A stretch of DNA of 64,000 bases, from positions 12,914,528 through 12,978,527 of the forward strand of contig JASSKH010000005.1 in assembly GCA_031763025.1 (NCBI GenBank). Direction: 5' to 3'. This document shows, piece by piece, positions 10,301 to 64,000 of this stretch. Position numbers and translations under genes: made by a program. This DNA is from Macrocystis pyrifera. Taxonomy: Eukaryota; Sar; Phaeophyceae; Laminariales; Laminariaceae. Numbering within the stretch: the first letter of the stretch is position 1; every line of letters starts with the position of its first letter. The notes under the pieces are model-generated. The model was not told the origin of the DNA. It worked only from the letters and a program-made list of their open reading frames with translations, and did no database searches.

Positions 10301-13300
10301 GGAGTCACCAAGTCCGGCCGGGGGAGGGAAATTCGAAGCGTAAGCAACGGGTGGCCGCATGAAGGAGATACCATGCCCTACTAGATAGGGTATATTCAAA
10401 ACGCCAGCAGTGGTTGGCCGCAGAGAAGATATAACCACCGAGCCCTTTTGAGCGAGGTAGCTTTACGTCGCAAACAGTGGTTGACGGGTCAAAAGTGGAT
10501 ATGCCACTATCGGTGAATTCACACGCAATTATACAGTTAGTTGTACTGGGGTCGTCAACGCTCGGTGGACAGAGGATGTTCGAACGACAACCCAAGGGAC
10601 CGGCCCCGCGGCTTGAATACGGGAAATACGTGCCAACGAGGCAACCCGTAACTAGTCACCAAGTGTCGAATTGGAACCAACGTAGTTTATAAAATCCGTC
10701 GTCCTAATGGATGCCGAGGGCAGTACCGGTGGAGATAAAATGGTCGGCACACTGGAATTCCCGAAATTGTTGTGCTTCCGGTTGTGCAGGGATGCGCATA
10801 CAAGACCCCCAAAACACGTCACGGGTATCTAGGCGTACGAGCAGGGGGAGTGGAATGCGCACGTACGTCAACGAGAGGCCGTGCTCGCTGGGCGCTGGCA
10901 AAAAATCAAAACGCGAAAACCGATCGTCCTCAAAATCGTAGGTAGTGCCTACATCGACTCGAACATTCTCGCTGTCCTCAGCTATCGGCACGTGGTGCCC
11001 TCGCCAGGCGCCAGACACGAACGAAGAACCAGACAGGATTATACGCTCACTTCGACCGCCGGTCGCGACAAAAAAATCGATGCTCAGTGCAACATTAAAA
11101 TCACTGCACGGTGGTACAATGGTAAGCTGATGACTCTCCTGCTGTACCAAAATTTTCGCTGTCGGCTGTGGCATGAACACAATCACTGCTATTACGGGGG
11201 GTCATAGTAAATTGGGACCAAATCTTGTTAGTAAAAACAGGTACACATATGTTTTTTTTGTGCACCGTAGGTCCTATCTACTATGGTCCTCCGTAATACT
11301 CCTCTTCGACGGCACATCGGTGGCTTGCTGAACTGCATTGCTGGGCTCAACCGGCGTATCATCGTATGAAGGCATAATAGCTATCTCACGTTGCTCCTTG
11401 GGCGCAACAAAAATCTCTCTGCTAGAATTTCGCTGTCGGCTGTGGCATGAAAATAACCACTGCTTGCTGTATGGCGGCACGTCGGTCTCTTGCTGGACCT
11501 TTATTACGGGAGAACATAGTAAATGGGACCAATTATTGTTAGTATTGTTAGGGAAATATACAGGTTTTTGTGTATACCGTAGATGCTATTTACTATGCCC
11601 CTCCGTAATGTAGAGCTGTAGAAAAAACTGCACTGCTGGGCTCAACCGAAATATCATCGTACGAGAGCATGGTGAAGTCACGTTGCTCCTCAGGCACAAC
11701 AGAAATCTCTCAGCACGGGGGACCATAATACTAGGACCTACGGTGTAGACAAAAGCCTACATATTTCCCTGGTTTTACTAACAATGTTTTGTCCTATTTA
11801 CTATGGTCCCCCGTAATAGTGGGCGCAGTTTGTGCCGAAACAGGAGCTGCGAGTCGGGCACGTCCGGGGCGTCGTTTTGTACTTGCAAAAAATCGTAGCG
11901 CCCCTGGGGACGTTTTACTCTCATTGTTATGGTGTGGAGAACCCCCTCCACTAAACTGATTGATACGTAGAAGGGAGAGGCCGAAAAATAGAGCTCCCCC
12001 CCCAGTCCCCCTGCCTCGTTGTTAGAACCCGTGTCTCATGAGTGAGAGCCATATCAGGTTGTCAGGCACTGGTGGTATATCCTTACCACTGGATATGGGG
12101 GACTGGGATATAATACGTGTATTCACGCCAAACAACCGATTACAGTAAAGGTCATCGGCTTCATCGCATTTGTAAATACGTTCCTGTATGATATAATACA
12201 TGTTCGGTTGTGGACATCAAATTAAACTTACATGTAAGACAGTCAAGCTCTTTAGACTTCAGACAGCAAAGCGATTCTTCTCGACTCTATAATTTTTATT
12301 TTTTTTTTTTTATCTTGTAAAAATTGAGAAAATGGGGAATAAAAATGGGTTTGAAAAAAAAGCAACTTCTCCCTCGCCGGGAATTGAACCCGGGTCTCAT
12401 GAGTGAGAGTCATATATCCTAACCATTGGACTACGAGGGAAGCTTGGTGTCATCGCCAATTTATCTAATATATATCGTAGAGTTGAGAATAATACGTGCG
12501 TGCTACAGCAGCAGTGGTGCCTCTAAAATACGATACCCGCAAGTATAGCGGCAACCAGCACTACTCCGCACTCCGCGCAGCAGTGTACCAAGCGATTTCA
12601 CAGGGACTATAACTCGTAGTGGGCAGCCGGCTTTACTCAGCCGGCACTATAGAGGGACGACTACGACTACGAGCTGCATTGGGAATATTAATCGGAGGTA
12701 ATCGTTTCACACATCGCACAGATACAACCGATCCGCGCTTATATACAAGTAGCACCTGATGGGTGTATGGCGGGTGAGTGATGACCTGCATAGATACGGC
12801 CAGTAGTATTTATAGTGTATCTTTCAGCGCAGATAGATCCTTGGTCTCTGCGATCTACCAGGTACAGTAGTAGCTCATCATCATGTTGCAGAGTGGGAGC
12901 CGTATAGCCCGCACATTGCATCAACTAGCATGCATGCGTTTCCCGAGTTACATCTATCTGTACTACAGCAGTACAATAGTACGACGTACTATGATCCAGG
13001 TGATGATCTATACCGGTAATCGTATGATACAGTATTAATAGTATTACGGCGGTCCATAGTTAACAGGATCTATGGTATAGACAAAAACCTATATATTACC
13101 CTATTTTTACTAACAAAATTTGGTCCCGTTAACTATGGACCCCCGTAATAGCAGTTACGCAGACACTATCGGTCAAGCTGTCGGATTTTGTTGTTATTGC
13201 TGTGGATCGTTCCCACGCGAAGCAATCAATTACCAATTAAAACCGCCTGGAGGAGTCGTTCTTGTTTGTTCGCGCTGATATAGTTATACGGCGGAAATCA

Positions 13301-28100: not shown

Positions 28101-29058
28101 TACGACAATCCGGTCCGACCTGTCACCATCACACCACCACTCTTCCTTAAATCCAGCACTATCAGCTGGACCGGCCAGGTACCCTCTCCCCCCTCCCCCC
28201 TCCTCCCTCTCCGAGCGACCCCTACTACCACCACCGCCACCACTCCCCACCCGTGTTGCACTCCCCACAAAAAAAAGATGATATTGCCAAAAGTCCCGAC
28301 AACATAGACAATGGAAGCACGTCTGCCGCCGTTTCATCTACGACGACTTTTCGTTTTTCCGCTCCAGCTCCGAGCGCTTCAATCGAGCCAAAAAAATAGC
28401 AGAGGGTAGATATGAGCTCCTTGCCTTGGTGCACTCCCGTGAGTGTGCCAAAGCGACAGCACTTTCCGTGTCCTCCTTCGGGGCGGACCTCGTCGCTGAA
28501 GTTTGAAAATGTGGTTCCAGGCGCTTGAATTTTCGGTTTCTTGTAGTGTAGCCAAGTAGTTTTTTTCTGGTGCAGAACGACCAGAAGGAGAAACGTACTG
28601 AAACGTACTCGTAACTGTACGGTTCTCCTCCTGGTCGTTCTCCACCAGAAAAAAAATACTTGGCTACAGTACAAGAAACTGGAAATTCAAGCGCCTGGAA
28701 CTGCAGTTTCAAACTTCAGCGACGAGGTCCACCCCGAAGGAGGACACTAAAAGTACAGTCGCTTTGGCACCCTCACGGGAGTGCACCAAGGAGCTCATAT
28801 CTACCCTGCCAGATTTGGGCTCGATGGAAACGTTCGGAGCTAGAGCAGAAAAACGAAACGTCCTCGTAAAAAAATCGGCGGTAGATGTGCTTCCATTGTC
28901 TTTGTTGTCGGGCCTTTTTTCGTGTTTTGTGGGCAGTGCAACACAGGTGTCTCTTCCGAGTCTAGTACCATCGATCGGGTAGGCCAGCTCCCCCCCCCCG
29001 CCCCCCCCCCCGCCCCTCCCCCCTCAACCCCACCCTTCGTCCCGCCCAACGCCCCCGC

Positions 29059-33069: not shown

Positions 33070-36000
33070 CTCCGATCACTCTCGGTAGACATTTCTCCAT
33101 CCATGCAGAGCGCGTCCAAGTGAGTCGTGTGTGGTATAAACACGAACACGATATACAACAAACAACGATACCCTTCCTACCACAGTAGTTCCTCCCGCCC
33201 ATACCCCCCCCCCCCTTCTCCAGCCCCCCGCCCCCACAATCCCTACCCCCCTACGAATATGCCGCGCCAACCCCATCCCCAATCGCAGGTATCCCCTCGC
33301 ACAGCAGCCCTCGCTCATTTTTCCGGAACGCGCGTCCTCACCAAATGTGTGAATCTATCAACAGGTGGCCGCGGTTTGACCCTCTCCACTGACCGCCCCC
33401 AACATTCTCCCAACATTACAAGCAGCACAACGAGGCCAAATTAGCAGGGCTTGTGGGCCGGGTCAGGAAGTTTTCGAAATCTCACGGGTCGCGTCGGGTC
33501 GGGTTGGGTCAGGTGGCCTTCAAATTTTTACGTGTCGGGTCGGGTCACCTTTACCGACCCGACCCGAACTGACCCGCGAGGTTTGACTCGATCCGTGAAC
33601 AGCCTGGGCGAAGAGGCCTTGAGGCTCCCAGAATAACCTGGTCTCCTATCAATAGCATATTTGGTACGCAGCCTTGAAAAAATTGACCGAACAACCAAGC
33701 TGGTCGTGTGGAACGGTCAGTGTTTTCTTGCACAGCCTCTATTCTCTCGCTTTGGCTCTGGGTACGTTGAAAACGCAATCCTTCACTCAGCTCAGGGGGG
33801 CGGGTTTTTCCACGATTTAATAATCACTTCGAACCCCTCAAAAAATGGAACCACCTCTGCACTATACATACCCTCACTGGCCCCATTTGATTCGTTATTC
33901 TTTGTGACGGTAGAGATGTCTTCTGCGCCTTTCGCTGCTCATTTAAAGAGACTATTGGATTGGATGAGACGCACAACTCACCCCCCCGTCCTCCCCCTTC
34001 ATGAGTACGCCCTCCCGCCCCCCCCCATATATTATCTAAAGGTTGAGTTGGTGTCGCTTGACAATAACACCGTAAAACATGCCGCTCACTGCGTGAGCTA
34101 GACAACCAGGGTACCGTTTTTTTGTTCTATTTTTTGGCGGTTGATCACAGCTGGCGATCGAGCCATACATCATTTGTGCCGGGTGGAGAACCTTTACTCC
34201 GCACAAGGGGAATGGTCGCATCGCGTAGTGTTTAACGGAAAAGGCACCCACGAGGCAGTGACATAGTAACCTCACTGCTGTCTCTAGAAGCGACCACACC
34301 GGAAAATAAAGCAACTCATTGAAGCTGTCATCCATGTGCAAGTCCGCTTCACAAGCGGTTCTTTAGTAGGATGCAGCTCACCCTTCATGCGACTCGCCGA
34401 ACACCTCACGGTGCTTCGCGATTCGTGCAAGCAATGTCGGTGAAAACCCGACGTGTTCCGTCCCGGCAATGTAGGGATGCGAGGGTCCATGGTCATAAGA
34501 CTACGGCCATGCATGATATCGAGCATCGAGCACCCCCCCCCCCCCCCCCCCCCCCCCCCTGTCCGCCAGGGCGTTCCCACCCCGCCTGACACCACACTCA
34601 CCTCATCCTGTGAAATTGCTTCCAGTAACGACAGCGGTCTTCCGGCCTGCAGCGCTCTTAAGCTAGCCTCCAGCCTCTCGGCGATGCTGTCGTAATCGAT
34701 CTCGCTCTTCCCCGACCCCGACCCCACCCCGCCACCACCACCACCACCAACGCTGCTGCCGGTGCTGCCAGCGCTAGCAACGGCGGCGGCACCCCCCGGC
34801 GGCATCTCGACGCTCTTTCCGTTGAGGTTAAGAGCGAACTCCGCCGACGTAAGCTCGTTTCGTACCTGATAGCAGTAGGACAGGACAAAAGACAAAGGCA
34901 GGACAGGACAGGACAGGACAGGATAGGACATACCGGAACAGACCATAACACAACCATACGTCGATATGGGGGGGAGGAGCGAAGGATGGAGATATGGATG
35001 GATGGATAGATGGGTGGAAGGACGGATGGATGGATGGATGGATGGAGAGAGGAAGGGTGGGAGGGCGAGAGGAGCGAAGGAAGGGGAGGGAAAGGAAGGA
35101 GGGGACCATGGTGCTTATTGCCGTTGACAAAGGCACAAAGGGATTGGTTCGCTCATGGGCGCAAGTCTGAGCGGCCGACGCTCGACGGTGCCTCTCTCTA
35201 TGAGACGGCGGACAATACCGCTCGACGGCGCCCCTCTCTATGAGGTGGAGGACAAGACCCCGGCAGGTACACGGAAGCCACCGCCGTGACAACCCTTCTA
35301 CTACCGCAACAACAACCCCACGCTAACTACAACTAGTTTGTCGTCCCCAAAAGCATTGGTACAGTTCTGAAAACAGTTATTACGGGGGACCATAGTAAAT
35401 AGGACCAAATTTTGTTAGTAAAAATATGGAAATATACAGGTTTTTGTGTGTACGGTAGGTCCTTTGTACTATGGCCCCCCGCAATAGCAACGTCACCAGT
35501 ACCAGGTACGAAACCGGGTGATCGTGATTCTACAAAAACGTGTGCGCAGATTTCCTGTGGCGCGCGTAGGGTGCCGCGAAATCCACGTCAACCCTGGCCC
35601 GAGCATTAACCCATACACCGGAGCCTGGACGGCTTTACAATGCCCCCGAACAACGATGACCACCCCCAAGTTGCGGGCGTTCATCCTGGCCACCCGGAGG
35701 CCACGACCCAGGAATCAGTAGCCAATGATCAAACCACGCTCTGTGTTTACTTCTTCCTCAGACTGAATGGGCGGGTGGGCGGGTGGGTAGGGGGGGTTTG
35801 CGAACTTCCCTCGCAGCAGAGCAACACGGGATACCTCCACCAATACCAACACCAACAAAAACAACCAACGTTACCACCACCACCACTACCAAGGCCACCA
35901 CCAATGCTACCACGGCTATCACCACCACCCTCACCGTCACCATCGCCACCACACGACCAACCACATCACCACAGTCATCACCATCGCCACCATCGCCACC

Positions 36001-40900: not shown

Positions 40901-43900
40901 AGCTCTTGTATTAGTTGCTGTTTGCCTCGCCAGATGTCTTCTGAACGAACGGGCGAGGTGCTCATCAGAAAAGCAGGCGATAACGCCTGCCAGGTATGAT
41001 GAGGGCGCGATTGCGACAAACCATAGTGTCGTATCAGGGGAGAGAGGATACCATAACACTAGCCCACCCTGAAGGACCGTATATGCAGATTCGTAGACAA
41101 CTTAGGGTGAAACCAAATCAATCCGGAGATTTCGGAGAATAGATCGAAGATGTGGCACTTCACAACCCGCTCCCACACCTCTAACTTGCAAGGCTGTAGC
41201 CGATTACACGTGGACACTGCGAACATAAAAACCAGACCTCGAACAGGTGCCAAAAGCGTCCTGCCGACGACGCCAGTGTTAAGTGTAAGGCAGTATGAAC
41301 CTAGGGACCGGGTACTGCTAGCAGGTTGATGCCTTTGGCTCTGCTCTGGCCACCCACACGAGGTGCTTGACGATGTTAGAAGTTATAAGCTCTTTTATTA
41401 GTTGCTGTTTGCCTCGCCAGATGTCTTCTGAACGAAGGGGCGAGGTGTTCATCAGAAGAGCAGGCGATAACGCCTGCCAGGTATGGTGAGGAGATGATTG
41501 CTACAAACCATAATGCCGCAACAGGGGAGAGGGGATACCATAACATATTACTGGTAGTATGAGTCGCGACAAGAATGTGCGGGCTGGAAGGGTTCAGGTC
41601 GGCTCGCACCACCGACAGGAACATGGAACCCCCCCCCGATGTTCTCCTCACCCTGGCCATCATATATTTGGCGTGTGCTGCTTTTACGTTTCTTCTCTTG
41701 TGTCAGGAAAGTGGATTTCTGGAGTTGCGAAAGCCGGGAAGCATGTCTCACTGCAGGGAGGAGTGCGAGACCATCGCCAAGGTGCGTGGGGGGACTTTTT
41801 GGCATTTTTGAGGGCCCAAATAATCGAGTTTGCACGTGAACGTCGAGGATACAGTTATTGCATTGTTCGTGAACTTGTGATTCCAGCAGTATCACCAACA
41901 TACGTATCGGGGCAAAAGTTTGACACAAACCCATTTTTCTGCCGTACTACCAAAACTGTTCCACTCTACTGTAGTTCCAAGTAAGTTTGTCCCCAAAAAC
42001 GTGAGTCATATGAGACGTTAAGCGTTCACACCTCCTACAGATCATCGACCCTCCACTGGATGATTTAGATATTTCAGGGAGGCGTTCTACGACAGAGGTT
42101 CACCCCACATTTTCTGAGGCTCCGATGTCCCCCCGAGGTATAAGGCGGAGTTCAACGGGGACAAATATAGGATACGACTGATGCTACACGCATCACGTAC
42201 GTGTACGTACGCATCTTGCCCAACAATGAAGAGCACAAGTTACAAACTCGCATACGGCCAGGGTGTATCGGGGTCTGAAACATGAGGCGCCCGGCAAGCG
42301 ACGCCGTGGTGGCTCAGAAAGCTTTCCCCCCCCCAAATGCAACACCTCTATCGTATATAGAACGCCTCCAGGGCAGATAAATGTATAGATCCCTGATCTG
42401 TACAACCTACGTGGCTCACGTCGCCGGGTGGGACCTGTACAATCATCATGATCTAGCTAATGTTTCCTGGGTTGGATCTGTACCATGTATGTTTTTTTTT
42501 TTTTTGCTTTATCCTCCGGTGGATTGGTAAAAATAAAGCTTAAGCTCACAACACTACCACACTTCCATGTATGCAGATGCTGTTCAACCTTTCACCACGG
42601 CAGGTGAGGAATTGGTCGATCTGCAGTAGATAGGCAGATCATGATCTGTATGATCTGTATGATCTGTCCGAGGTGTGTGAGCTTTCAAATGAAAAAAGTG
42701 TTTTTACTTTCGCCCCCTACCCCTGGTCTAGTGCCAAGTAACGTGTCACCGCAATCTTTGTGGGCGAAAATCCAGGACCCGCACGCAGTAACAGCCCCCC
42801 CCCCCCCCCCCCCCTACGATTGCGGGAGCATTTTCATCGATGCCGCCACGCCCGAGCGCTCTGCAGCATATATAGCATATATATACCAGGTATACGTCTG
42901 TTGACGGCTCTCTTGCCCCGGCTGTCCCGACACTATCGCTGTTATGTTAAGTCGAAAGAGGTCTATGGGGGTCAAAACTATTACTGCAGACCGTCAATCG
43001 GCATGTTTTGCCAAGCAAGCGCGCGTTCGGTACGGCGGGGTCCGTCCACGTATAAAGTGTCCCCCTCGCGTGTGTCGTTGCCCTTGTGCCGTCAGAAGCA
43101 AACATGAACACCTCCTATTTACAGTTGCAAGCGGCCTGTTTGCGGTATGATCAAAGGGTGGGTGGGTGGGTGGGGGGCATGAAAGTTCGCTTGTTCCTGT
43201 TTGAGGTCCTGTACGCATGTCCCCACAAATACGCTTGCCTCTCGTTGGATGGATGCGGGGCCTGAATCCTCTCCCGCTTCCACTCCCGCTACCGTTGCTG
43301 CGTCGATTATTTTACGTGCACGCGGTGGCGCGCCTGCCTCTCCGTGCGGCGGAAGCAGAGCTGCTCGGCGCTTGTCGAAGATGAGTTGGACGTGGAGGAG
43401 CTGGTGGTAGCCCTGTGGAGAAACAAGCTAGGAGTGGAGGTGAGAGATAAATGAACGATTTCGTGACCACCGCATCCGCCACCGCTGCCTCCGCCTCCGC
43501 GACCGCTGTGAGGTTGCCGTTGTCGGGCATGGTGTTCCCGACATCGACCAGGAAATACTTATAGTAGGAGAGACTGCAGTAGACGAAGTTCTGTAGACGG
43601 TATTAGTAATAGTACGTGATACGAACAAGTGGTATTACGGGGGACCATAGTAAATGGGGCCTATGGTACACACAAATACCTATATATTTACCTATTTTTA
43701 CTCACAATATTTGGTCCTATTTACTATGGTCCCCCGTAATGGTCCTTTTTTCCCCGTTGTACCTGGTATATTTTTTGCTCACGTTTTCAAAAGCTACTAC
43801 TGTTGCGGGACGCCTGCGATGTTTTCAGTCACCAAGTAACACATCCGGTCTATGGTCATACGACAACGGCCATGCATGCCATAAGTACCCCCCCCCCCCC

Positions 43901-49550: not shown

Positions 49551-49661
49551 ATGAAGTTGTTTCGCATCCTGTTCCCCGGAGCGGCTGCACTGCTAGGAGT
49601 GAATGCTGCCAACGCCTGCCCTGCGGACCACCCCTGCAACGAGGCTATCAAGGATAGTCAG
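49551..49661 (+). CDS. signal-peptide exon
   Basis: ATG in the context CAGCCATGA opens MKLFRILFPGAAALLGVNA, a clear signal peptide with likely cleavage after NAANA or ANAC. CPADHPCNEAIKDSQ and a donor (CAG|GTGCGT) follow. 37 codons, phase 0. Confidence 0.65.
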
Positions 49662-52600
49662 GTGCGTGCCTTGTTCCTGGGCGGTGTGACGATGCAACCA
49701 ACAGCAGCAGTAATGTTCATAGTTTGTTGACGACTTCTGTTTCCTTTCGGCACGCTTCGGTTGCAGTGTTCAGTCTATCTAATTGCCATGCTGCATGCGT
49801 CCAATCTGATTGCTTCGTACAGCGAAAGCTGATTTTGGCTGTTTTTGTCGATCAGAATGAGCGCTACAGATATATAATATTGGCGACGATAGGCGACCGA
49901 CGCCTGCCCTGCACAGCGTCCCCGACCCGCACAAACAATATATCCGGTATTTACTACAGTAAATCAGCACCGGTACCTCGTATTCGGATAGAGTAAACGT
50001 CCTTCACGTGCGAGGTGCCGCTGAGTTTGTGGGTTGTTGCTATCTTGACCGCGAGCCAAGTGTGCCCTCTACAGCAGCAGTACCACTACGAATGAGATAA
50101 CCACCGCCGTTGTGAGCGATTGTGAAAATATTTACGAAACATGGGAAGGAATGAACTGCTGAGAAAGCGTGGGCGTGTAGGCGCAATTCGACGCGAGTCG
50201 ACGAGGGAAGAAAACGCTGAAGCCTTCTCGCGATCAAAATGCAAGGCACGTACTCGTACGAACCGTGGTGGGGAGGGGGGAGAAAGAGTCTACAGGAGTG
50301 GGCGCCCGGTGTTAAGAAACAGCAATTTGGTTTCCAGGCTCAATGCCGTCTTTTTGTCCAACCTTAACTCTTTTGTATATAAACCAGTAGGATTGGGAGT
50401 TGGTCCCACTGTTGAGCTGCGTTTGTTGACCCATTTTGCTTGTTCTTCGTGCCGATCTGAGCCTAAATTTTATTCTTCGTGGTATAATGCGGGCGCTCAC
50501 AGTAGTCAGTTAAGTGCCGGTGCTGCTTATGTCACCCCGGATCTGAGTTGCAACTATTGATATGAACCATGAACACCTTCGGCATCCCTTTGATAACAGC
50601 AGTAAATCGTAAACCAAAACAATTATTATTCTGTTTGGCATCCGACATTGTTGCAGCATGAACTTCAACGTTGATCGCTCAAAACATTCCTGAAAGTTGT
50701 CACCCGTCTATGACACGAGCTGGGCTGGTCAAGAGCAGCTTTTTAGTTGGTCACGCACATTCTCAGTCCGTTTTTTTCGAAATTTGATCTGAATTTTTGA
50801 CAGGTGCCTTATCGTAGGCTTCCCGAGGGACTGATTACTGCACCACTTTTTTTTTTTTTTTTTTTCGGGAGCTAAAGGCACATTATAAGAATCACCGAAA
50901 AACAAAATCGACCAAAACTGACGAAAAAATAAATAAATCACGTGGTGCAGAAAGTAATCCCTTTGTATTGCCAGTGCGAATGGGGCATTAAAATTTCAGG
51001 TAAAAAAAAATAAAAATTGGTGTGAGAATCCTACATTTTCGATTTCCCGCGAAACTGGGGGAAAGCCGCGACACGAGCAAACACGCTCCGGACTGGTTCG
51101 ACCTGTTTTTTTGGCTGGCGGTCAAGTACGAGCGCGAGTGATGCGTGCAACTAGTGGTACTAGTAACAGGCGACAGTCACGTGAGAACTCAGGTGAGACC
51201 GCAAAGAAGCGGTTACCCAAAACCTATACTCGTACGAGCACAGCGTGAAGGCTGGTGGGATCCTATGGCGCCCCGTGACGCACGACTGACTCCTTTCAAC
51301 CAATGTAACTCAAACACCAACCATTGTATCATGTTGCGTCCCGTGCCGAACCACTCCTTGCTATGTAACTCAAGCACCAAGTTATACCATCCCTCCATGA
51401 CGCAGCAGCAGTGACCATCGCTGTAGTCGTGACTTTTGATCGACAAGTTTTCCCATCTGAAGATCTGAAGATCTGAAGATCTGAAGATCTGAAGATGTGA
51501 AGATCTGAACATTTGCACATATGAAGCCCCAAGAGGGAGCAAAAAGGGCGGAGATAACAAACGGGATGGGAAAAGGGGCGGGGGGAGGAGACACATAACT
51601 TGTACCAGTATCAGTATCTCTGTTGGATGAAGGACCAGCACGGATACTGGGTGTGCTGGATGTCGACGGGTAGAAGGAACGGGCTTTTCGTGAAGGAGTC
51701 TGGGTTCTGGCCCTGCGTGCTCTATCGTGCTACTTTTCTTGTCGTGTTTACTCGTCAATCTCGTCAATGCTCCCGGTAACATGCATTTACTGCATGACAT
51801 TTGCTTCTTCGTTTATCGTGGCAGGCATCCCACGTTAAGGAGGCTGGCTTCTGCCCCTTTGTCTTCGCCCAACGTGGCTCGAACCCACTACAATGGCGAC
51901 TTGCGGTAAGTCTGACGAAACCCTCACGGCGGCGTGTTTTCTTTCGCTTTGCTCCTTCTGCGCCATAACAATAATATTCCTCGCCCATACTCGTAGATAC
52001 ATACACAACACCAGCTGTTGGCATACTTGATGAGATCTTGACTATGAAAAATCACAAACCTTGATCAGAAAGCGGAATGATGAGTGGTGTTGGTCGACGA
52101 AACGATCGATAACATTCGTCTTCGAGGGTTTCCTATCTGTATTTGTAGCATGAAACGTTACTGCTGTCGATGACCCAGGCGAGATAGCCCACACGTACAG
52201 TATCAGTATTCTAGACCTGGATGTAGAACTAACGTGTACTGCTGGTAGTCTCCCTCGGATGTGGAATTTTTTTCTTGATGTCCTTAATTAATACCAAGTA
52301 CATGGTACCGGTATGAATTAATTGAATTGAACATCGTCGAACGGCCATGGTCATAACAATAATATACAGAATTCTGCCTAAAAAGTTTCGCGTAGCAAGC
52401 GACACAAACTACTGTAGAATGGCAGCCAACGAGCAACACCCTCCTCTACGAAGACGTCTACCCTTTTACGCTCTCGCGGCCATGACGACAGCAATCTGGC
52501 TTGAAAACAACTAGATATTTAAAGCTTTATCACAGCTTGATTAGGTACGCATGGCAAAGGCTTGTACCATCGGTTGTGTAGAGGGCGGTACAGAACGGTG

Positions 52601-55600
52601 GTTTCTGTGTTTGCGATCTCGCCGGTATGCGCCAATGGTTGTTTCTCGATTATGCAAGGCGTCCGTTTGATATCATCGCTACGCCCCGTGTCTGCATAAG
52701 GTCGTACTGTACATTGATCGCCATAAAACGCCGCCTGCCCGCCTCAAAGAAACAACTCGACACGCACCCGCTACGATAGATATAAGAAGCCTGTACGCAC
52801 GTAGAGATAAAAGAGGCGGATACTCTGCACTATGCAACTGTTGAAAGTGCTTCGAAGCACGCCGAGATATCGTGCGTCGTGTTCCCGTCGCCCATCCATC
52901 CATGCTAAGATTAGACGCCCCAACTCCGCGCGTAAAAGCCGCACTGCCACGTCCCTTTCAGCCGTTTGGTGTCTTTTCTTTTTTGCTGCTGAAGTGTTGT
53001 GCTCTATCCGCTACTTTTGCTGTTGTGTTCAATCGTCAACCTGGTCAATGCTCCCGGCAACATTTACGTTACGCCATGTGTAATCATTTTTTGTCGTGGC
53101 AGCAACTGCAGGACGAGCAGTCTGGCTTGCGCCAGATGGGTGCGCCGCCCATGAACACAGCTGCCACCGTCACCGCCGCCGCCACCGCCACCGCCACCGC
53201 CACTATCGACGCCAATGAGCTTGACCTCGGCTCCCATGAAGCTCCGTTGCAGCCTGTCTGCCCCTATGCTTTCGTTCAGCTTGTGGCCAACCCCGCGCAG
53301 TGGGGAGTTGCGGTAAGTCTGACGAAACCCTCACGGCGATTTGTTTTCTTTCGCTCTCGCTTTGCTGCTTCTGCGCCGAATAATCTTCTTCCGCGTTGCG
53401 AACACACACCACCAGTTTTTGACACATTTCGTGAGATCTGCAGCAATGAAATACCACAATTGTTTCTTTGGAAGACGGAACGATGAGTGGTATTGGTCGA
53501 CGAAACGATTGGCAACATTTGTCTTAAGAGGGTTTCCTATCTGTACTCACGGCATGATTTGTATTATCCGCGGCTCAGGCGAGATAGCCTGTATGCACAG
53601 TAGTATATCATATGTATTCGTATCCTATCATGCGAAGAATTAACATGAACATACTGTAGTAGTATCCCTCGCGTGCGGAAATGTCTTAATAAAGTCCGAA
53701 TTGGTACCCGTAATAGTACCTGGTACAGGTATGAATGAGTTGAACATCGTCGAAAGGCAAAGACTAAATCAATACTAACGCAGGTACCAGGTAGAACACT
53801 ACATGAAGGGTTTCGCGTAGCAAGCGAGACAACCTACTGTAGTATGGTAGCCAATGGCTATCACCCTCTTCTACGAAGACGTCTATTCTTCAACGCTCTC
53901 GCGGCCGTGACGACAGCAATCTGGCTTGAAAACAGCTACCCTGGTACCTGGTACCTGATACCTGGTAGAGCATTACAGCATTATGAGCGACGGATGGCAA
54001 TAGCTTGTGCCGTCGGTTGTGTGTAGAGGGCGGTGCGGAAGGGTGGCTTCTGTTTTCGCGATCTCGCTAGTATGCGTCAATGGTTGTTTTCTCGACTACA
54101 CGAAGCGTCCGTTTGATATCACCGCTACGCCCGTGTCGGCAAAAGGTGGTGCATAGATCCCCATAAACTGCGCCCCCTACATCCCAGAGGCCTGTACGTT
54201 CGTACTTAGCCGTACAAAAGGCGCAGATAGTCTGTACAACAAAACTCCTGTGGTTAGTGCTTGATCACGCTGAGGATATATCCGTTGCCACCGAAGGTGT
54301 GCGACACAAACGAAGGCATGTGTCGTGCGGTGGGGAAGGAGGGGCGGCACCTGTGACAGCGGCTTTATTGTCTAGATTGCTGCTCCTCCTGCTACGTTGC
54401 GTGACGTATATCGTGACAGGACCTCCAAGACACACCTTGCGGCGGCACCCCCGACGAGTACCATGTGAGCACGGGCGCCTCACATGGTACTCTGCGATGG
54501 TGCCGCCATATGGTTTGTCTTGGAGTTCCTGTCACGATAACGTCAAGTAACGTAGCAGTAGGAGCAACAATCTGCACAACCACGAGGAATCTCCCGGGTA
54601 TCCTGCCCAGTGCGTCTCCAGCCACTACAACTGGAAGATCTTTGCAAGTTAGACCAAACCCTCACGTCGAATTATGTTTTATTTCACTCCGCCATGAAAG
54701 CTTACTTGAACGGCAACTCTTCTCGCGGTAGGAATTAGCTTAGGCGTGAGTGCGGCAGGCGCAACAACTAACCTGACACCATCCATACCTGGTATGTTGT
54801 TCACGATCTCACAAGACCTGATTTGTCTATTTTCACTTTTCTGAAAAAAAAACGTTGTTGTCGGTTGACTAATATGTGTCTCGTTGCCCTCGGTTTCGAC
54901 ATTGAACAGAACTTCGACAAATGCGGCGTCGATTACATCAAGGACGAGGACAGCGAGATGTTCGCGACATCAAGCCACATCCGTACGACCAACCAGGACA
55001 TGATTGGGCCTGATGACGATTCCACCGGCGGCGGCGAGAAGGCGAGAGAGAGCCTGTTTTTTTGTGAAAGAGGCTGAGTTCTGCCCCTTCGTGCTCGATC
55101 GCTACTTCTGTTGTTGTGTTCACTCGTCAACCTGGTCAATGCTCCGGGTAACCTGCATTTTTCTGTATGATATTTGCTTCTTCGTTTATCGTAGCAGGGA
55201 CACCACATCGAGCAGGCTGGCTTCTGCCCCTTTGTCTTTGTCCAACGTGGCTCGAACCCACTACAATGGCGACTTGCGGTAAGTGTGACGAAACCCTCAC
55301 GGCGGCGTGTTTTCTTTCCCTTTGCCACTTCTGCGCCAAATAGTAATCTTCCTCGCTTATAGATACGTACAGACAGCACAACTGTCAGCATATTTAGTGA
55401 GAACTGCGGCAACGTAAAATCCCAAACGTTGATCAGAAAGCGGAATGATGAGTGGTGTTAGTCGACGAAACGATTTCGTCTTCAAGGGGTGTCTATCTGT
55501 ATTCATAGCATGATTTGTTGTTGTCGGTGGCCCGGACGAGATAGCCCATTCGTACAGTTTTCTATATACTTGTACGCACGTAGAATTGACGTGTGCTGCT

Positions 55601-58600
55601 GGTAGTCTCCCTCGGATGTGGAAATATACTTTTAGTAATGTCCTGAATTGGTACCTATTAGTAGTACCTGGTACCGGTATGAATTAATTGAACGTCGTCG
55701 AACAGCAATGGCTGTAACAATACTATGTAGGAAACTCTGCATGGAGGGTTTCGCGTAGGCAGCGACACAAACTACTGTAGAATGCGACGTAAATGGCAGC
55801 CAATGGGTATCACCCTCCTCTACGAAGGCGTCTATCCTTTATCGCTCTCACGGCCATGACGATAGCAATCTGACTTGAAAACAACTAGAGCACTACAGCA
55901 TTATGAGCTACGGATGGCAATGGCTTGTGCCGTCGGTTGTGTAGAGGGCGGTGCAGAACAGTGGTTTCTGCTTTCGCGATCTCGCCGGTATGCGCCAATG
56001 GTTGTTTTCTCGACTAAGCAAAGTGTCCGTTTGGTATCAATCGTATCATCGCTACGCCCGTGTCGGCAAAAGGTGGTAGGTACATTGATCGCCATGAAAC
56101 GCCCCCTGCCCCGCCTCAAAGAAAGCGAATAACACGCCCCCCCCCTACGACATACGCAAGAAGCCTGTACGTACGTAGCGATAGAAAGAGGCAGACACTT
56201 TGCACCATAACAACTGTCAATGGTGCTCCGAAACGTGCCTAGGTATCGTGCATCGTGTTCCCGTCGCTCATCCATCCATGCTGAGGTTAGACGCCCCAAC
56301 TTCCGTGCGTAAACGTCGGACTGCCACGTCCCTTTCAGCCGTTTGGTGTCTTTTCTTTTTTGCTGCTGAAGTGTTGTGCTCTATCCGCTATTTTTGCTGT
56401 TGTGTTCAATCGTCAACCTGGTCAATGCTCCCGGCAACATTTACGTTATGCCATGTGTAATCATTTTTCTGTCGTGGCAGCAACTGCAGGACGAGCAGCC
56501 TGGCTTGCGCCAGATGGGTGCACCGCCCACAAACACAGCTGCCACCGTCACCGCCGCCGCCACCGCCACCGCCACCGCCACTATCGACGCCATTGACATC
56601 GACCTCGGCTCCGATGAAGCTCCGTTGCAGCCTGTCTGCCCCTATGCTTTCGTTCAGCTTGTGGCCAACCCCGCGCAGTGGGGAGTTGCGGTAAGTCTGA
56701 CGAATTCCTCACGGCGATTTGTTTTCTTTCGCTCTCGCTTTGCTGCTTCTGCGCCTAATAATTTTCTTCTGCGTTACGTACGCACACCACCAGTTTTTGA
56801 CATATTTCAAAAGATCTGCAGCAATGAAATACCACAGTTGTTTCTTTGGAAGACGGAACGATGAGTGGTATTGGTCGACGAAACAATTGCCTACTGTCGT
56901 TATCAAGGGTTTCCTATCTGTACTCACGGCATGATTTGTATTATCCGCGGCTCAGGCGTGATAGCCTGTATGCACAGTAGTAGTATATCATATGTATTCG
57001 TATCCTATCATGCGAAGACTTAACATTAACCTACTGTAGTAGTATCCCTCGGATGCGGAAATGTATTAATAAAGTCCTGAATTGGTACCCGTAGTAGTAC
57101 CTGGTACAGGTATGAATGAGTTGAACATCGTCGAAAGGCAAAGACTAAATCAATACTAACGCAGGTACCAGGTAGAACACTACATGAAGGGTTTCGCGTA
57201 GCAAGCGAGACAACCTACTGTAGTATGGTAGCCAATGGCTATCACCCTCTTCTACGAAGACGTCTATTCTTCAACGCTCTCGCGGCCGTGACGACAGCAA
57301 TCTGGCTTGAAAACAGCTACCCTGGTACCTGGTACCTGATACCTGGTAGAGCATTACAGCATTATGAGCGACGGATGGCAATAGCTTGTGCCGTCGGTTG
57401 TGTGTAGAGGGCGGTGCGGAAGGGTGGCTTCTGTTTTCGCGATCTCGCTAGTATGCGTCAATGGTTGTTTTCTCGACTACACGAAGCGTCCGTTTGATAT
57501 CACCGCTACGCCCGTGTCGGCAAAAGGTGGTGCATAGATCCCCATAAACTGCGCCCCCTACATCCCAGAGGCCTGTACGTTCGTACTTAGCCGTACAAAA
57601 GACGCAGATAGTCTGTACAACAAAACTCCTGTGGTTAGTGCTTTGAATCACGCTGAGGATATATCCGTTGCCACCGAAGGCGTGCGACACAAACGAAGGC
57701 ATGTATCGTGCGGTGGGGAAGGAGGGGCGGCATCTGTGACAGCGGCTTATTTTGTAGATTGCTGCTCCTACCGCTAAGTTGCTTGACGTATATCGAGACA
57801 GGAACTCCAAGACAAACCTTGCGGCGGCACCCCCGACGAGTACCATGTGAGCATGGGCGCCTCACATGGTACTCTGCGATGGTGCCGCCATATGGTTTGT
57901 CTTGGAGTTCCTGTCACGATAACGTCAAGTAACGTAGCAGTAGGAGCAACAATCTGGACAACCACGAGGAATCTCCCGGGTATCCTGCCCAGTGCGTCTC
58001 CAGCCACTACAACTGGAAGATCTTTGCAAGTTAGACCAAACCCTCACGTCGAATTATGTTTTATTTCACTCCGCCATGAAAGCTTACTTGAACGGCAACT
58101 CTTCTCGCGGTAGGAATTAGCTTAGGCGTGAGTGCGGCAGGCGCAACAACTAACCTGACACCATCCATACCTGGTATGTTGTTCACGATCTCACAAGACC
58201 TGATTTGTCTATTTTCACTTTTCTGAAAAAAAAAAAAAAACGTTGTTGTCGGTTGACTAATATGTGCCTCGTTGCCCTCGGTTTCGACACTGGACAGAAT
58301 TTCGACAAATGCGGCGTTGATTACATCAAGGAGAAGCACAGCGACATGTTCGCGACATCAAGCCACATCCGTACGACCAACCAGGACATGATCGGGCCTG
58401 ATGACGATTCCACCGGCGGCGGCGAGAAGGCGAGAGAGAGCCTGTTTTTTTGTGAAAGAGGCTGAGTTCTGCCCCTTCGTGCTCGATCGCTACTTCTGTT
58501 GTTGTGTTCACTCGTCAACCTGGTCAATGCTCCGGGTAACCTGCATTTTTCTGTATGATATTTGCTTCTTCGTTTATCGTAGCAGGGACACCACATCGAG

Positions 58601-61600
58601 GAGGCTGGCTTCTGCCCCCTTTGTCTTCGTCCAACGTGGCTCGAACCCACTACAATGGCGACTTGCGGTAAGTCTGACGAAACCCTCACGGCGGCGTGTT
58701 TTCTTTCTCTTTCCCACTTCTGCCCCAAATAGTAATCTTCCTCGCTTATAGATACATACACAGCACAACTGTTAGCATATTTAGTGAGAACTGCGGCAAT
58801 GCAAAATCCCAAACCTTGATCAGAAAGCGGAATGATGAGTGGTGTTAGTCGACGAAACGATTTCGTCTTCAAGGGGTGTCTATCTGTATTCATAGCATGA
58901 TTTGTTGTTGTCGGTGGCCCGGACGAGATAGCCCATACGTACAGTTTTCTATATACTTGTACGTACGTAGAATTGACGTGTGCTGCTGGTAGTCTCCCTC
59001 GGATGTGGAAATATACTTTTAGTAATGTCCTGAATTGGTACCTATTAGTAGTACCTGGTACCGGTATGAATTAATTGAACGTCGTCGAACAGCAATGGCT
59101 GTAACAATACTATGTAGGAAACTCTGCATGGAGGGTTTCGCGTAGGCAGCGACACAAACTACTGTAGAATGCGACGTAAATGGCAGCCAATGGGTATCAC
59201 CCTCCTCTACGAAGGCGTCTATCCTTTATCGCTCTCACGGCCATGACGATAGCAATCTGGCTTGAAAACAACTAGAGCACTACAGCATTATGAGCTACGG
59301 ATGGCAATGGCTTGTGCCGTCGGTTGTGTAGAGGGCGGTGCAGAACAGTGGTTTCTGCTTTCGCGATCTCGCCGGTATGCGCCAATGGTTGTTTTCTCGA
59401 CTAAGCAAAGTGTCCGTTTGGTATCAATCGTATCATCGCTACGCCCGTGTCGGCAAAAGGTGGTAGGTACATTGATCGCCATGAAACGCCCCCTGCCCCG
59501 CCTCAAAGAAAGCGAATAACACGCCCCCCCTACGACATACGCAAGAAGCCTGTACGTACGTAGCGATAGAAAGAGGCAGACACTTTGCACCATAACAACT
59601 GTCAATGGTGCTCCGAAACGTGCCTAGGTATTGTGCATCGTGTTCCCGTCGCTCATCCATCCATGCTGAGGTTAGACGCCCCAACTTCCGTGCGTAAACG
59701 TCGGACTGCCACGTCCCTTTCAGCCGTTTGGTGTCATTTCTTTTTTGCTGCTGAAGTGTTGTGCTCTATCCGCTACTTTTGCTGTTGTGTTCAATCGTCA
59801 ACCTGGTCAATGCTCCCGGCAACATTTACGTTATGCCATGTGTAATCATTTTTCTGTCGTGGCAGCAACTGCAGGACGAGCAGCCTGGCTTGCGCCAGAT
59901 GGGTTCACCGCCCACAAACACAGCTGCCACCGTCACCGCCGCCGCCACCGCCACCGCCACCGCCACCGCCACTATCGACGCCATTGACATCGACCTCGGC
60001 TCCGATGAAGCTCCGTCGCAGCCTGTCTGCCCCTATGCTTTCGTTCAGCTTGTGGCCAACCCCGCGCAGTGGGGAGTTGCGGTAAGTCTGACGAATTCCT
60101 CACGGCGATTTGTTTTCTCTCGCTCTCGTTTTGCTGCTTCTGCGCCTAATAATTTTCTTCTGCGTTACGTACGCACACCACCAGTTTTTGACATATTTCA
60201 AAAGATCTGCAGCAATGAAATATCACAGTTGTTTCTTTGGAAGACGGAACGATGAGTGGTATTGGTCGACGAAACGATTGGCAACATTTGTCTTAAGAGG
60301 GTTTCCTATCTGTACTCACGGCATGATTTGTATTATCGGCGGCTCAGGCGTGATAGCCTGTATGCACAGTAGTAGTATATCATATGTATTCGTATCCTAT
60401 CATGCGTAGACTTAACATTAACCTACTGTAGTAGCATCCCTCGGATGCGGAAATGTATTAATAAAGTCCGAATTGGTACCCGTAGTAGTACCTGGTACAG
60501 ATGTGAATGAGTTGGACATCGTCGAAAGGCAAAGCCTAAAACAATACTCAACACAGGTACCAGGTAGAACACTACATGAAGGGTTTCGCGTAGCAAGCGA
60601 GACAGCCTACTGTAGTATGGCAGCCAATGGCTATCACCCTCTTCTACGAAGACGTCTATTCTTCAACGCTCTCGCGGCCGTGACGACAGCAATCTGGCTT
60701 GAAAACAGCTACCCTGGTACCTGGTACCTGATACCTGGTAGAGCATTACAGCATTATGAGCGACGGATGGCAATAGCTTGTGCCGTCGGTTGTGTGTAGA
60801 GGGCGGTGCGGAAGGGTGGCTTCTGTTTTCGCGATCTCGCTAGTATGCGTCAATGGTTGTTTTCTCGACTACACGAAGCGTCCGTTTGATATCACCGCTA
60901 CGCCCCGTGTCGGCAAAAGGTTGTGCATAGATCCCCATAAAATGCGCCCCCTACATCCCAGAGGCCTGTACGTTCGTACTTAGCCGTACAAAAGACGCAG
61001 ATAGTCTGTACAACAAAACTCCTGTGGTTAGTGCTTGATCACGCTGAGGATATATCCGTTGCCACCGAAGGTGTGCGACACAAACGAAGGCATGTATCGT
61101 GCGGTGGGGAAGGAGGGGCGGCACCTGTGACAGCGGCTTTATTGTCTAGATTGCTGCTCCTACCGCTAAGTTGCTTGACGTATATCGAGACAGGAACTCC
61201 AAGACAAACCTTGCGGCGGCACCATCGACGAGTACCATGTGAGCACGGGCGCCTCACATGGTACTCTGCGTTGGTGCCGCCATATGGTTTGTCTTGGAGT
61301 TCCTGTCACGATAACGTCAAGTAACGTAGCAGTAGGAGCAACAATCTGGACAACCACGAGGAATCTCCCGGGTATCCTGCCCAGTGTGTCTCCAGCCACT
61401 ACATCTGGGGGATCTCTGTAAGCTAGTATTGCGGGGGTCCGTAGTTAATAGGACCTGTGGTGCACATAACTTATATATTTACCTTTGTTTATGAACAATA
61501 TTTGGTCCTACTTACTATGGTCCCTCGTAATAGACGAAACCCTCACGTCGAATTATGTTTCTTTTCACTCCGCCACGAACACTTACTTGAGCGGCAACTC

Positions 61601-63212
61601 TTCTCATGATAGTACGTAGCTAGTTTAGGCGTGAGTGCGGCAGGCGCAACAACTAACCTGACACCATCCATACCTGGTATGTTGTTCACGATCTCACAAG
61701 ACCTGACTTGTCTATTTTAACTTTTCTGAAAAAAAAACGTTGTTGTCGGTTGACTAATATGTGTCTTGTTGCCCTCGGTTTCGACGTTGAATATAATTTC
61801 GACAAATTCGGCGTCGATGACATCAAGGAGGAGGACAGCGAGATGCTCGCGACATCAAGCCACATCCGTACGACCAACCAGGACATGATCGGGCCTGATG
61901 ACGATTCCACCGGTGGCGACAAGAAGGTGAGAGAGACAGCCTGCGGGCAATAGCGCCGGCCCGACGCACACGACTGATAGCACCTGGGCCAACCGAACTT
62001 TCCACTTTCCCTTGACTAACTGGGCAGTGATATGATGGTATTATGATATTATACCAGCTGGTTGCGCCGGTGGTGTAGGCATTAGCCCTGACTTACACGG
62101 CAGTGGCTGGTGTTAGGTTTGGAATATCGCTACGAGCTGGTTCAAGTATACCGCCCCAAAATTCCGTACGCATCCAACGTCCACACCGTGTTTTGGGGAT
62201 AGGCCCTCTAATTTTGCTCACGTGTTCCATCGAGGGCGCTCAACAAAATAGAATCGCCTGCGGCTACGAATAACAAGCGCTGCGTGCATGCCATTGCATT
62301 ACGTACCTACTCTCCTTACAGCATTACACAGAAGTAGTATACAAACCAATACCTGCCATCTCTGACTGTATCGTGGTTTAGTGAGTACAGCCGACGCGAA
62401 GAAAATGCTGAAACCTTCTCGCTATCAAAATGTAGAAAGCACGTACGTAGGTACCATAGTAGTGGGGAGGGGGGGGAGAAGAGCCTACTACCGGTACTAC
62501 CTACAGTAGGTGTGACCCCGGATATGAGTTACGGCTATGAACTATGAACCATCTCTTTGTTACCCCGGTTGAGCCACCAAAAACACTGGTTGGTAACTTT
62601 AGTGAGATCAGCCATCTACGATGCGAGCACAGCGTGAAGGCGGGTAGGATCATGTTGCACCCCGTGCCGCACGACTGACTCCTTTCAACCATTGTAACTC
62701 AGACACCAACTATTGTATCATCCCCCCCATCACGCAGCAGCGACCGTCGCTGTAATCGTCACTATTCATATATATCTTCTTTTGAGCGGCAAGTTTGCCC
62801 ATCTTCACATGTGAAGGCTCGAGAGGATTCACTAGGAGGGAGCAGGAGCAAGGGCAGAAAGGCAGACATAGCAAACGGGATGGAAAAAAGGGACACAGAA
62901 GACCAAAACAGAACATGTATCTCTCTACTCTAGGATGAAGAATCAGCACGGACACTGGGTGTGCTGCATGTCGACGGGTAGAAGGAACGGGTTTTTCATG
63001 AAGGAGTCTGGGCTCTGCGCCTTCGTGCTCGATCGCTACTTCTGTTGTTGTGTTCACTCGTCAACCTGGTCAATGCTCCGGGTAACCTGCATTTTTCTGT
63101 ATGATATTTGCTTCTTCGTTTATCGTGGCAGGGACACCACATCGAGGAGGCTGGCTTCTGCCCCTTTGTCTTCGTCCAACGTGGCTCGAACCCACTACAA
63201 TGGCGACTTGCG
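49551..63212 (+). CDS. secreted protein with tandemly duplicated exons (3' end outside the window)
   Basis: A signal-peptide exon (49551-49661) is followed on the same strand by a repeating set of phase-0 exons: A (51825-51905), then B-C-A in unit 1 (53103-53312, 54910-55041, 55198-55278), unit 2 (56481-56690, 58298-58429, 58586-58667) and unit 3 (59866-60081, 61795-61926, and A at 63132-63212). Because all exons start and end in phase 0, any number of units stays in frame. A and B end alike (NPLQWRLA / NPAQWGVA) before near-identical introns. Both contain a CPFVF/CPYAF core. I do not recognise the family. That the signal exon belongs to the array is inference from strand, phase and order. 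Some exons are damaged (separate entries), so part of the array may be dead. Confidence 0.5.
50190..51600 (+). repeat. left flank of the array, related to 62385-62930
   Basis: GAAGAAAACGCTGAAGCC to GAGTTGCAACTATTG (50190-50565) and AGCACAGCGTGAAGGC onward match 62395-62935. Relative to the right copy this one contains about 220 additional bases at about 50310-50530 and a 10-base tandem repeat (GAAGATCT) at 51460-51512. Confidence 0.7.
51627..51728 (+). CDS. exon-like segment D, first copy
   Basis: Reads MKDQHGYWVCWMSTGRRNG and then LFVKESGFWPC. A second copy lies at 62935. The segment aligns with the end of C exons plus the read-through that follows them (KEAEFCPFVLDR). Splice sites here are unclear. 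Confidence 0.3.
51825..51905 (+). CDS. array exon A, copy 0
   Basis: 27 codons, acceptor GTGGCAG, donor GCG|GTAAGT. Reads ASHVKEAGFCPFVFAQRGS and then NPLQWRLA. Phase 0-0. Confidence 0.55.
53103..53312 (+). CDS. array exon B, unit 1
   Basis: 70 codons, acceptor GTGGCAG, donor GCG|GTAAGT. QLQDEQSGLRQMGAPP, a Thr/Ala tract coded by ACCGCC repeats, an acidic link (ANELDLGSHE), then PVCPYAFVQLVANPAQWGVA. Confidence 0.6.
54375..54572. repeat. 198-base hairpin (long inverted repeat), unit 1
   Basis: Arms of about 90 bases pair around GCACGGGCG. The inner part (GTACCATGTGAG / CTCACATGGTAC) is perfect and the outer part is imperfect. It ends directly at the E exon relic. Confidence 0.85.
54562..54646 (+). 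pseudogene. relic of a third related exon (E), unit 1
   Basis: The sequence after it (AGACCAAACCCTCACGTCGA) matches the intron start after A and B exons (TGACGAAACCCTCACGGCG). Before it, YPAQCVSSHYNWKIFA resembles their NPxQWxxA ending. The donor is degraded (GCAAGTTAG). Copies lie at about 57944-58028 and 61336-61417; the last keeps a GTAAGC donor. Confidence 0.4.
54910..55041 (+). CDS. array exon C, unit 1
   Basis: 44 codons after TTGAACAG: NFDKCGVDYIKDEDSEMFAT, then SSHIRTTNQDMIGPDDDSTG. The donor position reads AAG|GCGAGA, so a GC donor would be needed. A branch-like TGACTAAT lies about 35 bases upstream of the acceptor. Confidence 0.45.
55198..55278 (+). CDS. array exon A, unit 1
   Basis: 27 codons, GHHIEQAGFCPFVFVQRGS and NPLQWRLA, phase 0-0, donor GCG|GTAAGT. 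Confidence 0.55.
56481..56690 (+). CDS. array exon B, unit 2
   Basis: 70 codons, same as unit 1 with a few replacements (IDAIDIDLGSDEAP instead of IDANELDLGSHEAP). Confidence 0.6.
57757..57954. repeat. 198-base hairpin, unit 2
   Basis: Same structure and length as the unit 1 copy, with loop GCATGGGCG. Confidence 0.85.
58298..58429 (+). CDS. array exon C, unit 2
   Basis: 44 codons, acceptor TGGACAG. Reads NFDKCGVDYIKEKHSDMFAT and onward. Also ends at AAG|GCGAGA. Confidence 0.45.
58586..58667 (+). pseudogene. array exon A, unit 2, frame broken by one extra C
   Basis: Identical in layout to the other A exons, but 82 instead of 81 bases: TTCTGCCCCCTTTG has five C where the other copies have four. 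The frame is lost unless this is a sequence error. Confidence 0.65.
59866..60081 (+). CDS. array exon B, unit 3
   Basis: 72 codons: one extra ACCGCC hexamer adds a Thr-Ala pair compared with units 1 and 2. Otherwise nearly the same as unit 2. Confidence 0.6.
61149..61346. repeat. 198-base hairpin, unit 3
   Basis: Same structure. Here the arm base changes (CACCATCGACGAG / CTGCGTTGGTG) keep partial pairing. Confidence 0.85.
61427..61532 (-). mobile_element. MITE copy 13, present in one array unit only
   Basis: Ends TATTGCGGGGG and CCTCGTAATA. It sits about ten bases after a possible 5' splice site (GTAAGC) of the third array unit; units 1 and 2 lack it. The empty sites in the sister units show the insertion and its TA target directly. 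Confidence 0.85.
61795..61926 (+). CDS. array exon C, unit 3, acceptor altered
   Basis: 44 codons, NFDKFGVDDIKEEDSEMLAT and onward. The acceptor CAG of units 1-2 is TAT here, so normal use is doubtful. In contrast the 3' side has a proper donor (AAG|GTGAGA) instead of GC. Confidence 0.4.
62935..63036 (+). CDS. exon-like segment D, second copy
   Basis: MKNQHGHWVCCMSTGRRNG and FFMKESGLCAFVLDR, preceded by a fair acceptor (CTACTCTAG). Counterpart of 51627-51728. Confidence 0.3.
63132..63212 (+). CDS. array exon A, last copy in the window
   Basis: 27 codons, GHHIEEAGFCPFVFVQRGS and NPLQWRLA, intact frame and splice sites. Confidence 0.55.
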
Positions 63213-64000
63213 GTAAGTCTGACGAAACCCTCACGGCGGCGTGTTTTCTTTCTCTTTGCCACTTCTGCCCCAAATAGTAATCTTCCTCGCTTATAGATAC
63301 ATACACACAGCACAACTGTTAGCATATTTAGTCAGAACTGCGGCAATGTAAAATCCCAAACTTTGATCAGAAAGCGGAATGATGAGTGGTGTTAGTCGAC
63401 GAAACGATTTCGTCTTCAAGGGGTGCCTATCTGTACTTCATAGCATGATTTGTATTTATGTCATGACTAGTTATTGTCGGTGGCCCGGACGAGATAGCCC
63501 ATACGTACAGTATCATACGTATTCGTATCATATCACATGCAGAATTAACATGCACCTACTCTGGTAGTCTCCCTCGAATGTTGACATGCAATATTGTCCT
63601 GAATTGATACCTATTAATAAATAGTACCCGGTTCCGATACGAATGAATTGAACATCGTCGAACGGCAATGGCTGTAACAATACTATGTAAGAAACTCTGC
63701 ATGGAGGATTTCGCGTAGCAAGCGACACAAACTACTGCAGTATGGCAGCCAATGGGCATCACCTTCCTCTACGAATATGTCTATTCTTGTACGCTCTCGC
63801 GGCCGTGACGACAGCAATCTGGCTTGAAAACAACTACCCTGGTACCTGGTAGAGCATTACAACATAATGAGCGACGGATGGCAATGGCTTGTGCCGTCCG
63901 TCGGTTGTGTAGAGGGCGATGCAGAACGGTGGCTTATGTTTTTGCGATGTCGCTAGTATGCGCCAATGGTTGTTAGCTCGACTATGCAAAGCGTCCGTTT

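Follow-up and report, generated by a model that had tools for sequence, protein, structure and literature searches.

The window, a stretch of 64,000 nt on the plus strand of a Macrocystis pyrifera contig (G000:C219:12914528-12978527), contains a signal-peptide exon followed by a tandem array of phase-0 exon cassettes that continues beyond its edge. The array itself is real. Judging from sequence features, it probably belongs to a protein-coding gene, one of a family of two, whose predicted product is secreted, acidic and rich in Ala, Pro, Gln and Thr. A secreted-protein gene growing by duplication of such cassettes had been the original prediction, and with the corrections given below it is still the best reading. 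According to the assembly report, the genome comprises 537 Mb in 223 contigs with a GC content of 50.37%, and its DNA came from one haploid female gametophyte sequenced at ~100x with PacBio reads of 15.8 kb mean length (PMC10498591). Our searches covered all 537,376,219 bases of the 223 contigs. Below, the window locus is called right and its paralogue left (L, as in LA or LB1); positions preceded by C219 refer to the contig and all others to the window.

In phase terms, the chain of exons reads signal peptide, four times A-B-D-C, and then E, all on the plus strand. The signal-peptide exon lies where it had been predicted (49551-49661; 37 aa, MKLFRILFPGAAALLGVNAANACPADHPCNEAIKDSQ) and ends at a phase-0 donor, CAG|gtgcgt. 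In the first unit, exon A1 (51825-51905; 81 nt, 27 aa, ASHVKEAGFCPFVFAQRGSNPLQWRLA) and exon B1 (53103-53312; 210 nt, 70 aa, ending in CPYAFVQLVANPAQWGVA) are both bounded by a cag acceptor and a gtaagt donor; they are followed by a broken exon D1 (54420-54640), which tblastn recovers as two pieces, 54420-54491 and 54584-54640, with an inverted duplication between them, and by C1 (54910-55041; 44 aa), which has a cag acceptor and a GC donor (gcgaga). The second unit contains A2 (55198-55278; 27 aa) and B2 (56481-56690; 70 aa), both with recognisable ends and splice sites, a D2 broken in the same way as D1 (57802-58022), and C2 (58298-58429; 44 aa), again with a GC donor. In the third unit, A3 (58586-58667) carries one extra C that brings its length to 82 nt and shifts the frame, B3 (59866-60081; 72 aa) has its ends and splice sites, D3 (61194-61417) is broken like D1 and D2, and C3 (61795-61926), which has a GT donor, no longer has its Cys or, with tat in place of cag, an acceptor. 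The GC donors of C1 and C2 lie within 54910-55057 and 58298-58445; D1 and D2 end in GCAAGT, whereas D4 ends in GTAAGT. A4 (63132-63212; 27 aa), with its ends and splice sites, opens the fourth unit, which is completed past the window edge by B4 (C219:12978962-12979165), an intact D4 of 47 aa (EIQDKPCGDSTREFDVSTGASTTTAFPKESPGYPAQCVPSHYIWGIA; C219:12982242-12982382, flanked by cag and gtaagt) and C4 (C219:12982793-12982927). The terminal exon E (C219:12983554-12983700, equivalent to window positions 69027-69173), which reads GQDAFLHSDD...TGTIEVG followed by TAG, is located ~5.0 kb beyond the window. The array thus leaves the window, as had been supposed, but it stops 5.2 kb further on, after the fourth unit. 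The cassette had been described as A-B-C, a description that overlooked exon D as well as the terminal exon E.

Across both loci, exon A measures 81 nt in four of five copies, the exception being A3; the eleven collinear B exons range from 192 to 216 nt (64-72 aa), all divisible by three; those C exons that can be delimited measure 132-135 nt (44-45 aa); and exon D has 141 bp. Four of five A and all eleven collinear B copies hence combine a length divisible by three with canonical splice sites, the B acceptor being cag in every copy and the B donor gtaag in ten and gtacg in one. That A, B and C begin and end in phase 0, as first proposed, holds for most copies; A3 with its frameshift and C3 without its acceptor depart from it.

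The predicted units of 3.37-3.39 kb are present, with spacings of 3373 and 3388 bp between A exons and of 3378 and 3385 bp between B exons. U1 (A1-B1-D1-C1) extends over 51685-55057, U2 over 55058-58445 and U3 over 58446-61945; the beginning of unit 4 occupies 62624-64000, where the upstream part is similar to the intron that precedes A1 (51235-52668). Unit 4 is more diverged and longer than the others (5.3 kb from A to the end of C, against 3.2 kb in unit 1), and A3 and A4 are 4546 bp apart. With gaps left out, whole units are identical at 92.1% of sites for U1-U2, 97.2% for U2-U3 and 91.3% for U1-U3, though these averages hide a mosaic. U1 and U2 show 195 differences in 1,267 sites over 51684-52990 (84.6% identical) and none over 53730-54177, where the longest exact run reaches 509 bp; from 54576 onwards, they match exactly over another 379 bp. 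U2 and U3 differ at only 16 of 1,306 sites in the first stretch, whereas near the unit end the relation is reversed (41 differences in 432 sites for U2-U3 vs 10 in 432 for U1-U2). The units had been called almost identical, which is accurate for part of the array but not for the first 1.3 kb of U1-U2. Such alternation of exact and diverged tracts within units is the pattern expected from unequal exchange together with gene conversion, and the mosaics point to one or the other having acted between units. The repeat is moreover nested, since the A and B halves are themselves homologous (74-79% gap-free identity, introns included).

The same exon types recur on the opposite strand at a distance of ~270 kb (C219, minus strand, from the signal exon at 12695152 to E at 12666164), in a paralogue in which mainly exon B has been amplified. 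Here the signal peptide is followed by a hybrid of A and B, seven B exons and an additional B in inverted orientation, D and C in broken form, and then A, D, C and E. The expectation of a signal exon joined to a frame-compatible array of altered copy number is borne out here, because in the paralogue, too, the modules stand between a signal exon and E, but in a different number. Searched at the protein level, the entire genome gave 26 matches, 25 of which fall in the two clusters on C219 and one, marginal, elsewhere (E = 3.75). Both genome matches of exon E lie in the clusters, one per locus, as do ten of the eleven matches of exon D, the other having E = 2.09. Within this genome we found no clear relative outside the two loci, the only two outside matches both having E above 2. 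The fused C-A junction sequence is common to C1-A2 and C2-A3 of the window and to the paralogue, so that the tandem C-A arrangement would predate the separation of the loci or have been copied between them later. A tree of the exon ends with the 420 bp that follow them unites left B2-B8 and, separately, right B1-B3, each with UFBoot 100, and places right B4 outside the latter group. This locus-wise grouping suggests that each locus amplified or homogenised its own block. The region 3′ of E (C219:12984201-12988707) is 93-95% identical to copies lying ~7.3 kb apart beyond the paralogue (C219:12650001-12658367).

The two loci together contain 34 exons (2 signal peptide, 5 A, 1 hybrid, 11 B, 1 inverted B, 6 D, 6 C and 2 E). 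If C1 and C2 with their GC donors are treated as intact, eight of the 34 are broken, namely A3, D1-D3 and C3 in the window gene and one D, one C and the inverted B in the paralogue. D1-D3 are split by an inverted duplication of D's own beginning and its upstream intron, which forms palindromes spanning the D exon ends at 54368-54579, 57750-57961 and 61142-61353. An origin of the 212-bp palindrome at 54368-54579 from a MITE or other transposon was rejected: its eleven genome matches all lie within the two loci, and its arms consist of exon D and the upstream intron, which indicates a local inverted duplication. Paralogue palindromes are found at C219:12671141-12671478 (D), C219:12670350-12670657 (C) and C219:12682511-12683538 (B), and the inverted B copy at C219:12682494-12682697; at both loci, palindromic duplications either break cassette exons or leave behind a copy that is dead. 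The rest of the window is not free of inverted repeats: at least 16 lie in positions 1-49000, including a long one with more than 80% identity, so that the palindromes of the array need not reflect an enrichment there.

Other features of the window include a 700-bp near-palindrome (82.5%) at 28248-28949, a tRNA-Glu (CTC) gene on the minus strand at 12368-12441 and two LRR open frames, one at 4394-5032 (Pfam LRR_6, E = 4e-8) and one at 6846-7577 (Pfam 8e-5, just under the curated cut-off). A dispersed, partly self-complementary element of ~109 bp is found at 61427-61535, 35378-35486, 6178-6288 and 43633-43740; among the three in-window units, it lies directly downstream of D3 only. A stretch of ~90 bp before A1 (51592-51695) recurs on many other contigs.

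Does the array still encode a protein? A formerly coding modular gene in decay, its array now neutral and its repeats spread by recombination alone, seems to us an unlikely alternative, although several observations favour it. B exons diverge like introns (right-by-left identity 0.813 vs 0.815 and 0.803), and their dN/dS is near 1 (0.79 right, 0.85 left, 1.07 between loci; A3 is excluded from dN/dS). The likelihood test of omega = 1 in B gave no rejection (MG, -796.48 vs -796.67); of the iqtree codon models the MG pair alone was used, and the GY comparison of fixed and free is unclean because kappa is fixed as well. The broken A3, C3 and D1-D3 of the window gene likewise speak for decay. What counts against it is that the B reading frame is open in all eleven collinear copies (LB1, the A/B hybrid, and the inverted copy are excluded from these B statistics), whereas neutral simulation leaves on average 4.6 of 11 copies with a stop and none with one in 8.2% of runs. 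The other frames of the B segments are open in 4, 0, 9, 0 and 2 of 11 copies, and in six equally long, offset segments that are not exons no frame is open in more than 5 of 11; the best of the other frames (9/11) is antisense, so composition contributes to the openness. All five indel intervals in B are multiples of three, whereas 11 of 20 in the flanking introns are not; the in-frame indels sit within or next to a run of GCC/ACC triplets, which would slip by threes in any case. Also against decay are a signal exon that is 89.2% identical between loci, well above its 300-bp flanks (65.5% and 56.8%), and an exon E whose stop, acceptor and frame are kept at both loci.

Codon tests gave a mixed picture. 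Between A4 and LA, ~2.5 of 9 changes are nonsynonymous (p = 0.0035 with the count taken as 2 of 9), a comparison that shows apparent purifying selection on exon A between the loci; A1 against LA gave p = 0.067, and A1 against A4 no constraint (p = 0.91). The A1 core against four B copies taken singly gave p = 0.12, 0.024, 0.24 and 0.0087, and the A-by-B core has a dN/dS of 0.22 when pooled over 44 pairs that are not independent. Single-exon tests of C4 (pN/pS 1.14), E (0.83) and the signal exon (0.61) did not differ from neutral. The pooled exon set has a pN/pS of 0.58 (bootstrap 0.38-0.89; p = 0.018) with one B pair that we picked ourselves, and of 0.67 (0.41-1.15; p = 0.096) without that pair. 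Among the positions invariant in the eleven B copies are LQDEQ close to the start and, towards the end, C, P, F, Q, P, A, Q and W. In our reading, the frame would be kept while most residues change fast.

Returning to the protein-coding reading, a model made of intact exons alone (signal peptide, A1, B1, A2, B2, B3, A4, B4, D4, C4 and E, leaving out C1-C2, A3 and D1-D3) predicts 539 aa. Past the first 23 residues, it has 17% Ala, 8% Pro, 8% Gln and 7% Thr and contains 11 Cys; the net charge of this part is -43. By eye, the signal exon has a basic n-region, a hydrophobic core and an AxA-like site, all kept in the paralogue, and its maximal Kyte-Doolittle mean over 11 aa is 1.97. A and B end in a shared motif, Cys-Pro-aromatic ... 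Asn-Pro-x-Gln-Trp, whereas D ends in a looser Cys...Trp. The module had gone unrecognised in the original prediction, and Pfam likewise gave no known domain above curated cut-offs: the first spliced model had five matches, all below them (best DUF2880, E = 0.023), and single exons and the second model yielded only DUF6069 (E = 0.0035, 17.9 bits against a cut-off of 27.2). Neither the exon translations found so far nor the spliced models had LRR, TPR or NB-ARC among their Pfam matches, so that the parallel first drawn with LRR and TPR genes holds as an analogy only. Brown algae possess a cysteine-rich family, EsV-1-7, with the motif C-x4-C-x16-C-x2-H; the 539-aa spliced model has no match to it. 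Searches outside the genome used the B alignment. A PDB profile search with B returned three matches (best E = 0.57), and none of 43 matches of the B pattern in viral contigs was confirmed. In GTDB genomes, one of 46, 17 residues in Catenovulum, was set aside as chance, having been picked by the pattern and having stops nearby in frame. AlphaFold2 of B2 alone gave a pLDDT of 58, a low confidence that is uninformative. As to function, a tentative suggestion drawn from composition is that the product might be a multivalent protein of the extracellular matrix or the cell surface, its Cys/aromatic modules held on flexible Ala/Thr spacers; next to this guess, a part in defence or recognition would be rather unlikely.

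How would such a gene change? From exon order and phase we infer that the signal exon would be joined by splicing, in a single mRNA, to phase-0 exons A, B, D and C in varying number and then to E, giving a protein destined for secretion. Since every cassette exon is in phase 0 at both ends, the frame would survive the gain or loss of modules. The long homologous introns could misalign, and recombination between them would alter module number with the frame intact, while gene conversion would homogenise adjacent units. The window gene would thereby have multiplied the entire 3.4-kb A-B-D-C block and the paralogue B alone. Judging by the palindrome that the copies share, D was presumably already broken when the window block multiplied.

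It is improbable, in our opinion, that this is a diversity-generating secreted gene of recognition or defence, resembling LRR/TPR exon shuffling, whose modules and splicing vary among individuals. Phase-compatible exons, signs of exchange between units and two loci with different module sets would agree with it, as would a dN/dS in the N-terminal part of B of 1.54 within right and 1.21 between loci (but 0.85 within left). That fastest part, however, includes the low-complexity Ala/Thr linker, the Cys/Trp core of B is slower (dN/dS 0.26 within right, 0.85 otherwise), and no receptor or recognition domain is among the Pfam matches. A brown-alga-specific, secreted, non-receptor repertoire gene that resorts to the exon-array trick of the LRR/TPR genes, with modules varying between individuals or isoforms and a frame under selection while residues drift or diversify, is likewise doubtful. 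A non-coding satellite or an assembly artefact, named with the original prediction as what would refute it, is very improbable indeed. Long-read assembly of repeats can miscount units, and identity between units is high in part. Yet the units are diverged, with A-type halves differing by up to 17%, the source is haploid with ~100x long reads, splice sites are conserved and a second locus has the same exon order, all of which make an artefact unlikely. The exact copy number and the one-base insertion in A3 could nonetheless be assembly errors here.

If the protein-coding reading is true, exon-array evolution in brown algae is not confined to candidate immune-receptor genes but includes an apparently secreted orphan protein. 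The two paralogues, which share their exon types while one amplified a four-exon unit and the other a single exon, constitute a natural experiment, and module counts across kelp strains would measure directly the rate at which such arrays turn over. Among the matches listed from the openly licensed PMC literature, the titles and abstract beginnings contained no description of the kelp gene, and the same literature returned no match for brown-algal tandem exon duplication, with or without a secreted product, nor for symmetrical exons; among 29 matches of a broader query, the ten listed did not contain the name Macrocystis.

Tandemly duplicated, phase-symmetric exons form a wider class in which recombination in introns adds or removes exons without disturbing the frame. 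From this general class, the kelp gene differs in its four-exon cassette, in paralogues that amplify different sub-blocks and in an orphan, apparently secreted product. The Ig exon arrays of Dscam are mentioned in a study on brown-algal genes (PMC11378527). As reported in the same study, ROCO genes of brown algae carry LRR exons of 72 bp in phase 2 within a ROC-COR GTPase (PMC11378527). With these ROCO/LRR genes the kelp gene shares one module per exon, a uniform phase, tandem duplication within the gene and a proposed role of such duplication as a source of diversity, whereas its exons measure 81, 192-216, 141 and 132-135 bp, are in phase 0, have no known domain in their translations and come after a putative signal peptide. 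It also resembles the brown-algal NB-ARC-TPR genes, which two studies name (PMC11378527, PMC12879055), in having an array of exchangeable exons in one gene, but neither NB-ARC nor TPR is among the Pfam matches of its exons. The exon-array trick is already established in brown algae by the LRR exons of ROCO genes; here the module, its phase and the apparent cell location are different.
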